Assembly: GCA_913051705.1 (NCBI GenBank)
Contig: CAJXCW010000013.1
Coordinates: 1-42,187 of the forward strand
Length of the DNA: 42,187 nt
Direction of reading: 5' to 3'
DNA from: an uncultured bacterium
Lineage (GTDB): Bacteria; JAAXHH01
This document shows positions 3,893-7,238 of the stretch, piece by piece. How positions within the stretch are numbered: position 1 is the first letter of the stretch; every line of letters starts with the position of its first letter. A program made the translations under genes and the position numbers. The notes under the pieces were generated by a model. It worked only from the letters and a program-made list of their open reading frames with translations. It made no database searches and was not told where the DNA came from.

Positions 3893-4450
3893 TCAAGCTG
3901 TTGCTTGTCGAAATGCGATGTAGTGTTTTCTACGCTCGATATAACTTGCTGCCGTCTGATGAATGCGTTGAATTTGATCGTCTGTAACGGATTTGATAAT
4001 GCGTCCGGGAACACCCAGTACAAGTGATCCGGGTGGGATGTCCATACCCTCGGTGACCAACGCCCCGGCGCCAATGATGCTGTGTTCTCCGATTCGGGCA
4101 CCACTTAAGATGATGGCCCCCATAGATATCATGACGTGATCCGCGAGGTGGGCACCGTGGACGATAGCCCGATGTCCCACGGTGACGCCTTTACCAATAA
4201 ATGTAGGAAAGCCCGGATCGATATGAATAACGGTCCCGTCTTGAATATTCGATCCCTCTTCGATTGTTACCGGCTCGTCATCTGCTCGAATAACAACCTG
4301 ATACCAGACGCTGGCGTTTTTTTCGATGGTGATCGCGCCGATCAAATTCGCGCTTTCCGCAACAAAGGCGGAGGGATGAATTTGAGGATGCTCATGTATA
4401 TATTGATTGGAAGATAAAATACGCTCACCCCGCTGCCGTATGTATCTCAA
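3893..4450 (-). CDS. Gamma-carbonic-anhydrase-like hexapeptide-repeat protein
   Basis: Left-handed beta-helix protein of the gamma-CA/YrdA/CaiE family, 185 aa from the earliest start. Repeating hexapeptides run from about residue 25 to 150. The three metal-ligand positions of gamma-carbonic anhydrases are present as VIHID, GHRAIVHG and the spacing between them. Many such proteins have no measured anhydrase activity, so carbonic anhydrase function is only possible. The start is uncertain: the first in-frame start is a TTG at 4450 that overlaps the GHMP kinase gene by 26 bp and has no clear ribosome site. It is the last gene of the minus-strand run that includes galU. Confidence 0.85.
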   Translation of the reverse strand: MRYIRQRGERILSSNQYIHEHPQIHPSAFVAESANLIGAITIEKNASVWYQVVIRADDEPVTIEEGSNIQDGTVIHIDPGFPTFIGKGVTVGHRAIVHGAHLADHVMISMGAIILSGARIGEHSIIGAGALVTEGMDIPPGSLVLGVPGRIIKSVTDDQIQRIHQTAASYIERRKHYIAFRQATA

Positions 4451-5408
4451 GACCCGAATTCGGACCGGGTTGGAGAATGTCTGTCGCCCCGGCTTCCCTG
4501 GCGGCTGCGATCATGGCTGATGGTTCCGGATGTAAAACCATAACGGCACCGCTGCTCCCGGCTAATTTAGCGCCTAAAGCCCCCGCTTTCTGAGCCAGGG
4601 CGATAAAATGGTCATCTTCAGGATTTGAGCCGCCCAATGATCGTGATATAGCCTGATTCTCGTTCATCAATCGCCCTAATTCATCCAAATGGCCGTGGAG
4701 AAGCGCCTTTTTCCCCAACCGGGCCAGGTCAGCAATCGTATTGTAAGCGTCTACCACAGCCGGTTCACCCGCTACCCATCGTTCTCTAATAGGCGTATGG
4801 ACCATGCCTGACACCCGCTGTCCCCCGGTAATAATGAGCGTGATCGGTAATAGGCAATCAGACAACGGCTCTATGGTAGCATACGGATCTTCGCCGAATG
4901 GTTGATGAAATTCTTTTCCTCTGAAATCCATATAATTGATACCGCCAAAGGTACACATATAGGCGTCCTGATAGCCGCAAAAGACCCCCAGATGATTATA
5001 TTCGATCATACGGGCTGACTCTGCCATATGATAAGGGGTAAACTGAAGATTACGGTAGGTCAGAACTGCAGCAAGGGTGGATACCAGCAGGGCCGTCGAA
5101 CCGGATAAGCCCGCACGAAACGGCACTTCTGTCGTCCATGAAATATGCGCGTGGATATCCGTAGATTCCGAACCGGTCAGTACAACTTTAGCAATATCAA
5201 AATAGTCCCCGTTTAGCCCCAGGTCATCGAGGGATTCAACAAGACATTGTTCCGTACCACTGTCAAGGATGAGCCTGTCCGAAGGCTTCAACGTCACCGT
5301 AGCGCGTTCCATGATCGAGCAGGAGAGGACACTGCCTCCATACATATCGGTCGGATTACCGATAATACCAGCCCTGCCCGGCGCAGAGCATCGAATAATA
5401 GGGGCCAT
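4425..5408 (-). CDS. GHMP family sugar kinase, glucuronokinase-like
   Basis: ATP-dependent small-molecule kinase of the GHMP superfamily, 327 aa. The N-terminus SAPGRAGIIGNPTDMYGG matches the GNPSDxY signature of glucuronokinases. The ATP-binding loop is AGLSGSTALLV (about residues 97-107), and motif 3 is AKLAGSSGAVMVL near 280. The central CGYQDAYMCTFGGINYMDF resembles the substrate-side region of plant glucuronokinase. The likely reaction is sugar (perhaps glucuronate) to sugar-1-phosphate. The start at 5408 is supported by AGGGA about 7 nt upstream. It shares strand and close spacing with galU, KDPG aldolase and a PfkB-like gene, which fits uronate or nucleotide-sugar metabolism. Substrate is inferred from motifs only. 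Confidence 0.82.
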   Translation of the reverse strand: MAPIIRCSAPGRAGIIGNPTDMYGGSVLSCSIMERATVTLKPSDRLILDSGTEQCLVESLDDLGLNGDYFDIAKVVLTGSESTDIHAHISWTTEVPFRAGLSGSTALLVSTLAAVLTYRNLQFTPYHMAESARMIEYNHLGVFCGYQDAYMCTFGGINYMDFRGKEFHQPFGEDPYATIEPLSDCLLPITLIITGGQRVSGMVHTPIRERWVAGEPAVVDAYNTIADLARLGKKALLHGHLDELGRLMNENQAISRSLGGSNPEDDHFIALAQKAGALGAKLAGSSGAVMVLHPEPSAMIAAAREAGATDILQPGPNSGLEIHTAAG

Positions 5409-5465
5409 TGATTATTCCCTGGTAGCACTAACGTCTCAATTGTCAGAAAGTCTATATGCAACGAC

Positions 5466-6347
5466 CTAGCGGACTCTTTCGATGTCGAAAGGCTTGGTCA
5501 GATATGGATTTTCGGTTTTTTCGATAAAGGACAGGGTATCACGCCTGACGGTGTCACCCGTCACGAAAATGGTCAGGTGATGCACGATGCGCTGACAACG
5601 CTGGCCGTCGTCTTCCAATTTATTCAGACATTCTTCCATACGCGGCGTGACTTCCGGCATACGGAGTACAAGCTGGGCATAGCCTATAATAATCGCCAAG
5701 GGGTTATTTAATTCATGGGCAACACCGGCGACCAGTTGACCGACCGCCGACAACCGTTCAGACTGTACGAGATACGATTGGGTATCCTGCAGCTCAGACA
5801 GACTTTTTTCCAATTCCGCCTCGTGGTGCTTGGAGTCTTTAAGCAGAAGGGCATTTTGCTGCATCACCTTTTTCAATGCCACCACTTTATCTTCCAGCGC
5901 CTGGGTCAATCGGTTGACATGTTCTTTAAGGTAACGTCTTTCATCCAGGTCCGGCTGATTTACCGGGATCTGCACCGGTTGGATCGTCAGTAACTCATGT
6001 ACGGTCTTGACCAGTTCTTCATTTTGGAACGGACGCCGCATAAAACGGTTGGCGCCGATTTTCAGAGCAAATTCTTCATCCTCCTGGCTGACATAGGCTC
6101 CGGTAAGAAAAAGGAAGGGGGTCTTGGCACCGTCCGGCAAAGCACGAATAGAATGGCAGAATTCAAAGCCATCCATATTCGGTATCAGAATATCGGAAAT
6201 AATCAGGTCCGGAAGATGTGTTTTTACCTGTTCCAAACCCTGGTTTCCGTCTTGCGCAGAGATCACGTTATATCCTGCGCTGTTTAATATATCTTCCAGA
6301 AGCGCTAAATTAGCCGGCCGGTCGTCAACAACTAATACTGTTTCCAT
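5466..6347 (-). CDS. Receiver / HisKA protein: hybrid histidine kinase with an apparent internal deletion
   Basis: 293 aa. Residues 1-120 form a response-regulator receiver with acidic pair VVDDR and phospho-acceptor Asp52 (LIISDILIPNMDG), but the conserved Lys is Arg in FMRRPF. A coiled coil follows at about 138-195. A HisKA helix carries the phospho-His211 in GVAHELNNPLA. After QRIVHHLT (about 258) the chain changes abruptly to IFVTGDTVRRDTLSF and PYLTKPFDIERVR, which is the typical last third of a C-terminal receiver. The HATPase_c catalytic domain and the first part of the second receiver are therefore missing, in frame. As it stands it cannot autophosphorylate. The ATG has AGGA upstream and is 15 bp from galU. 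Confidence 0.85.
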   Translation of the reverse strand: METVLVVDDRPANLALLEDILNSAGYNVISAQDGNQGLEQVKTHLPDLIISDILIPNMDGFEFCHSIRALPDGAKTPFLFLTGAYVSQEDEEFALKIGANRFMRRPFQNEELVKTVHELLTIQPVQIPVNQPDLDERRYLKEHVNRLTQALEDKVVALKKVMQQNALLLKDSKHHEAELEKSLSELQDTQSYLVQSERLSAVGQLVAGVAHELNNPLAIIIGYAQLVLRMPEVTPRMEECLNKLEDDGQRCQRIVHHLTIFVTGDTVRRDTLSFIEKTENPYLTKPFDIERVR

Positions 6348-6362
6348 TGTTTTTCCTGATAT

Positions 6363-7238
6363 TTAAAAATTGATTCTGGTTCGAAGATGATCCCGAAAGG
6401 CGGTACCCTCTTCAGCATCAGTCAGGGCAAAGTCAACACAGGCTTCCCAGTACGTTCTCGGACTGCCGATATCGTATCGCCGGCAATCAGCGCCGAGATG
6501 CACACACCAGACCTTTTTCCCATCTTGAAGGAGTGTTCTGATGGCATCTACCAGCCAGAGTTCTCCATCTCGTCCGGGCGGCGTTTTGTCCAGGGCGGAA
6601 ATAATATCCGGGTTACAAATGTATCGGGCTGAAACGGCATACCGGCTAGGCGCGACGGTCAGGTCCGGTTTTTCAACCAGATCATCAATGGGAAAGGCCT
6701 CGTCTGCTTCATATATAGGATGTACGATACCGTATCGGGCCACCTTCTCCTCGGGCACAGTCTCCACCGCGATAGTACACGCGGCGCCCTGTTGCTGATG
6801 TACTTCGATCATCCGTTGAACCACATTTCGGCCGGGCGGTGTATGTATGATGGCATCTCCCCAGGCGACCACGACCGGATCAGCACCGATAAAGTTGTGG
6901 GCCAACAGTACGGCGTCACCGTTACCAGCTGGTTTATTTTGGCGTATGGACATAAACTCAACATCCGGTATGCTGATCGAATCCGCCAGATCATTCCTTC
7001 CCTGCGACCGCAGTCGTGTTTCCAGAGCGGTATCGTGATCGAAATAGTCCTCAATCGTCCGTTTGTGCCGGGCAGTAATAAAAAGAATTTGATCAATGCC
7101 CGCTTCAACCAATTCATCGACTATATGATGAATGGTCGGCTTACGGCCAACGGGCAGCATTTCCTTGGGTATGGTTTTGGTTAACGGTAATAATCTTGTG
7201 CCCAGCCCGGCGACGGGTATGACGGCTTTACGTATCAT
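6363..7238 (-). CDS. galU: UTP--glucose-1-phosphate uridylyltransferase
   Basis: Makes UDP-glucose from UTP and glucose-1-phosphate, feeding envelope polysaccharides and UDP-glucuronate. At 291 aa it has normal GalU length. The nucleotide-binding signature AVIPVAGLGTRLLPLTKTIP and the KEMLPVGRKP motif are at the N-terminus; the DELVEAGIDQILFITAR, VVAWGDAI and VEKPD segments also match. Its start overlaps the KDPG aldolase stop by 4 bp (ATGA), so translational coupling is likely. With the glucuronokinase-like GHMP kinase two genes downstream, a role on uronic acid 1-phosphate is possible but unproven. Confidence 0.94.
   Translation of the reverse strand: MIRKAVIPVAGLGTRLLPLTKTIPKEMLPVGRKPTIHHIVDELVEAGIDQILFITARHKRTIEDYFDHDTALETRLRSQGRNDLADSISIPDVEFMSIRQNKPAGNGDAVLLAHNFIGADPVVVAWGDAIIHTPPGRNVVQRMIEVHQQQGAACTIAVETVPEEKVARYGIVHPIYEADEAFPIDDLVEKPDLTVAPSRYAVSARYICNPDIISALDKTPPGRDGELWLVDAIRTLLQDGKKVWCVHLGADCRRYDIGSPRTYWEACVDFALTDAEEGTAFRDHLRTRINF

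Follow-up and report, generated by a model that had tools for sequence, protein, structure and literature searches.

Spo0B is a DHp protein thought to derive from a kinase by loss of the ATP-binding domain (PMC12826061), and this supposed origin makes it possible in principle that the truncated histidine kinase described here acts as a phosphate acceptor. Also comparable among described systems are the hybrid kinases of HisKA-HATPase_c-REC order, among them EspC, EspA and CckA. These three are the best NCBIfam resemblance of an intact orthologue of our gene, all of them far below the curated cut-offs. The gene lies in a 42,187-nucleotide stretch of DNA from an uncultured bacterium (the whole stretch analysed, hereafter the window), and we conclude that it is probably a recently inactivated pseudogene, in a lineage where two-component genes may be on the way out.

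The open reading frame runs, without a change of frame, from an N-terminal receiver through a coiled coil and a HisKA/DHp domain into the end of another receiver of about 32 residues (Table 1). In an alignment with intact orthologues, the N-terminal receiver keeps Asp52 and Thr82 and has Arg105 at the position of the conserved lysine. The phospho-acceptor His211 sits within AHELNNP, and this H-box is invariant across the four aligned sequences. The HisKA profile match ends at position 57 of 66, indicating that DHp helix 2 is cut short of its end. Pfam found no HATPase_c domain (PF02518) in the 293-residue frame; the orthologues have one. Beyond residue 261 the frame reads VTGDTVRRDTLSFIEKTENPYLTKPFDIERVR, which is a receiver end, and the alignment accounts for only the last ~32 residues of the second receiver, the Asp-bearing part being gone. 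An earlier note on this DNA had claimed that HATPase_c and the Asp-bearing part of the second receiver were lost in frame, and both Pfam and the orthologue alignment bear this out.

Table 1 Features of the truncated kinase gene and its neighbours, in window positions
Feature	Position	Strand	Basis or remark
Upstream neighbour, nucleotidyltransferase (GalU-like), intact	6363..7238	-	syntenic in G001, G014, G015
Truncated hybrid kinase ORF, 293 aa	5466..6347	-	ORF call and Pfam
N-terminal receiver domain	6000..6338	-	Pfam PF00072, residues 4-116, 99.7 bits; orthologue alignment
HisKA/DHp domain	5574..5744	-	PF00512, residues 202-258, 51.5 bits; profile positions 2-57 of 66
Deletion junction; left and right parental sequence both match the CATTTTCG region	about 5564..5571	-	alignment
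C-terminal receiver remnant, last third, VTGDTV...YLTKPFDIERVR	5469..5563	-	matches G001 residues 502-539 at 68% identity (38 aa)
Premature TAG	5466..5468	-	codon in the orthologues is Leu (TTG), Gln (CAA) or Arg (CGG)
VVAYRLSDN codons left beyond the TAG, with TGA as the probable original stop	5436..5465	-	translated match runs through the TAG
Downstream neighbour, GHMP kinase, intact	4425..5408	-	order matches G001

Using the protein as query against 59 genomes, we found three close matches (60-67% identity), one each in G001, G014 and G015; the lengths of their open frames, in ascending order, are 561, 562 and 581 codons. A wider search of 16 genomes of the same phylum added no further orthologues, and at the thresholds used none was present in any of the 12 genomes of genus g3 (G002-G013). 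The closest orthologue comes from the Candidatus Zixiibacteriota MAG K_Offshore_80m_m2_058 (VGJU01000012.1; G001 C12). The three proteins (548 aa in G001, 560 aa in G014 and 579 aa in G015) are 60-69% identical to the window protein over its surviving N-terminal part and have the order REC-coiled coil-HisKA-HATPase_c-REC, with HATPase_c and two receivers seen by Pfam in G001 and G015. All three sit after a GalU-like nucleotidyltransferase gene, as the window gene does, with a gene for KDPG aldolase immediately beyond in the cases of G001 and G015; the kinase gene belongs to a conserved row of sugar-metabolism genes. The full-length homologue that the earlier note had proposed looking for in relatives was thus found three times over, intact and syntenic, at 548-579 aa. 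The same alignment bears on the arginine in receiver 1, which that note had recorded correctly. All three orthologues have arginine at the lysine position (RRPF, RRPF and RRSI), so the substitution is older than the lesions; it is an ancestral family trait, and a reading of it as a sign of decay is ruled out.

Alignment with the intact orthologues places the jump at residue 261/262, from HHLTIF(A..) to (..I)F(I/V)TGDTV, such that the F of HLTIF is joined directly to the F of IFITGDT and the frame is kept. The site given previously, residue 258 near base 5573, was right to within a few residues and moves to the position listed in Table 1. In the three orthologues the joined points are 774, 783 and 762 bp apart, which puts the size of the deletion at 762-783 bp (254-261 codons). 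At the junction, CTGACCATTTTCGTGACGGGT, the match to the left parent runs as far as ATTTTC and that to the right parent starts with it, and the parental sides would accordingly share about 6-7 bases. Junctions of this sort are typical of deletion between short matching sequences. Microhomology deletion seems a better description of this one than repeat collapse, which is unlikely as a shared stretch of ~6-7 bases falls far below what would make a k-mer assembly graph collapse. The C-terminal fragment matches the end of the G001 orthologue at 68% identity over 38 positions and is therefore the gene's own tail. A chimera with another kinase locus is ruled out, the tail and the downstream gene being colinear with the orthologue.

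The frame also carries a premature TAG, overlooked in the earlier note. It lies inside the last receiver helix (FDIERVR-stop-VVAYRLSDN-stop), 10 codons ahead of the ancestral end. A translated search with the G001 protein carries on past the TAG for a few residues, and VVAYRLSDN followed by TGA occupies the place of the orthologues' last residues. The TAG is a second lesion, independent of the deletion.

The part of the gene that survives shows no accelerated evolution when unique changes are counted against G001: over 245 shared columns, there are 11 in the window copy and likewise 11 in the intact one of G001. For the GalU-like neighbour protein the counts are 15 in the window and 9 in G001. 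If function has been lost, the lesions are consequently recent on that scale; judged by these counts, recent lesions and retained function would fit equally well.

Elsewhere in its own 5.45-Mb assembly (G000; 405 contigs, 5.7% estimated contamination), neither an intact or second close copy of the gene nor the missing ~770 bp was found. Several other kinases and receivers of this genome are broken. The genes on C75, C34 and C19 combine a frame change with TAA, TGA and TAG, respectively; C207 has a frame change inside HisKA; and C226, C9, C14 and C1 have stops in kinase or receiver genes. Among the G000 matches listed, in-frame stops occur in 7 of 67 two-component domain matches versus 1 of 76 ABC-transporter and glycosyltransferase matches (Fisher p = 0.026), a comparison that was picked after the first stops had been seen, that is only marginally significant and that comes from an assembly with 5.7% contamination. 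Decay of all genes was not seen, stops being present in 0/38 ABC transporters and 1/38 glycosyltransferases among the matches listed, and these nearly stop-free classes speak against a genome-wide decay of everything. G001 leans the same way, with in-frame stops in 6/42 HATPase_c matches (C116, C133, C41, C74, C40 and C54) versus 0/31 glycosyltransferases (p = 0.035); for HATPase_c, G014 and G002 showed none. Receiver matches number 46 in the window's own genome, 68 in G001, 12 in G002, 55 in G014 and 70 in G015. From such counts it is plausible that the lineage is drifting towards loss of two-component genes.

The same genome encodes a REC-GAF-GAF-HisKA protein of 627 aa without HATPase_c on contig C70 (G000:C70:18467-20350, minus strand; L027 85-1968). 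It ends cleanly after the DHp domain and is followed by a gene that, by eye, reads as CheW-like. Its last 103 residues (DHp and tail) are 66% identical, to the last residue, to a G014 protein of 426 aa (C316; L091), which adjoins a similar CheW-like gene. From this pair, a stable type of DHp protein without HATPase_c is present in these genomes, and the window gene does not resemble it.

In the reading that we prefer, inactivation, the ancestral product would be a soluble hybrid kinase with the order REC-coiled coil-HisKA-HATPase_c-REC. The gene would have lost ~770 bp in frame through one deletion between short matches (ATTTTC), and with them the ATP-binding domain and the greater part of the second receiver; independently of this, a nonsense mutation would have trimmed the end of the protein. 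The product should be unable to bind ATP or autophosphorylate, leaving a pathway without its kinase. The gene has what marks a pseudogene, namely intact syntenic relatives (three) beside disabling lesions (the in-frame deletion and the TAG). Speaking against inactivation, the surviving 261 codons are stop-free with functional residues conserved, and the deletion preserved the frame, an outcome with a chance of 1 in 3. The frame and the well-conserved remainder would also suit an artefact of assembly or library preparation (a template switch, a chimeric read or a minor variant) in an organism that has the full gene, and a template switch during library preparation could yield the same junction. 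The 405 contigs and estimated contamination of the assembly lend this some weight. However, the ~6-7 shared bases are much below an assembler k-mer, the missing 770 bp was not found elsewhere in the assembly, and further kinases of this genome are damaged as well. Moreover, an artefactual deletion would not create the TAG, so a pure assembly deletion, one of the two explanations in the earlier note, leaves the second lesion, as well as the 6-7-base microhomology junction, unexplained. We regard an artefact as unlikely.

We hold it equally improbable that the truncated protein still works, whether as a scaffold, as a dominant-negative partner or as a phosphate acceptor of REC-DHp build, with phosphate passing in Spo0B-like fashion from other proteins to His211 or Asp52. 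REC and DHp, phospho-acceptor residues included, are intact and show no acceleration, one HATPase-less DHp protein exists in the same genome on C70, and Spo0B offers a presumed precedent for derivation from a kinase stripped of its ATP-binding domain (PMC12826061). Against such a role, the truncated form occurs in no orthologue among the 16 phylum genomes, the HisKA match that stops at 57/66 leaves DHp helix 2 incomplete, and where the C70 family has a clean tail this protein ends in part of a receiver fold whose last helix is trimmed by a nonsense codon. The dominant-negative or acceptor interpretation offered earlier is not favored by a tail that amounts to half a receiver closed by a nonsense codon. 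Thus, the domain loss described in the earlier note is real, and neither of its explanations, a dominant-negative or scaffold protein or an assembly deletion, is the best supported. Still more doubtful, and in our judgment very unlikely, is that one deletion has just converted the hybrid kinase into an ATP-free REC-DHp acceptor that competes with or feeds other relays; if true, such an acceptor would be a natural intermediate on a Spo0B-like route.

Taken by itself, this is a broken gene of an ordinary kind. It has modest value as a clearly delimited case of decay, with two lesions, intact syntenic relatives and a microhomology junction, in a little-known candidate phylum in which the sampled G002 has only 12 receiver matches versus 46-70 in the other genomes sampled. 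It also warns against annotating the frame as a working kinase or scaffold.

Compared with known systems, the window gene is closest to the orthologues in G001 (C12), G014 and G015, with which it shares its neighborhood and the arginine-for-lysine substitution in receiver 1; what sets them apart from it is the presence of HATPase_c and of an entire second receiver and the absence of an early stop. With EspC, EspA and CckA it has the HisKA H-box in common, and the intact orthologue has the whole core of such hybrid kinases, but the window gene is missing both the ATP-binding domain and the last receiver's phospho-accepting Asp and is not an orthologue of any of them. It resembles the C70 type in having a receiver and DHp without HATPase_c. 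That type has a conserved clean tail after DHp and a CheW-like neighbor, whereas the window gene has neither, ending in a receiver remnant and lying between GalU-like and GHMP kinase genes. By analogy with Spo0B-type phosphotransferases, its DHp-like helical pair could in principle accept phosphate without ATP hydrolysis; unlike in those proteins, the loss is seen in one genome only and has left behind a receiver fragment and a nonsense codon.
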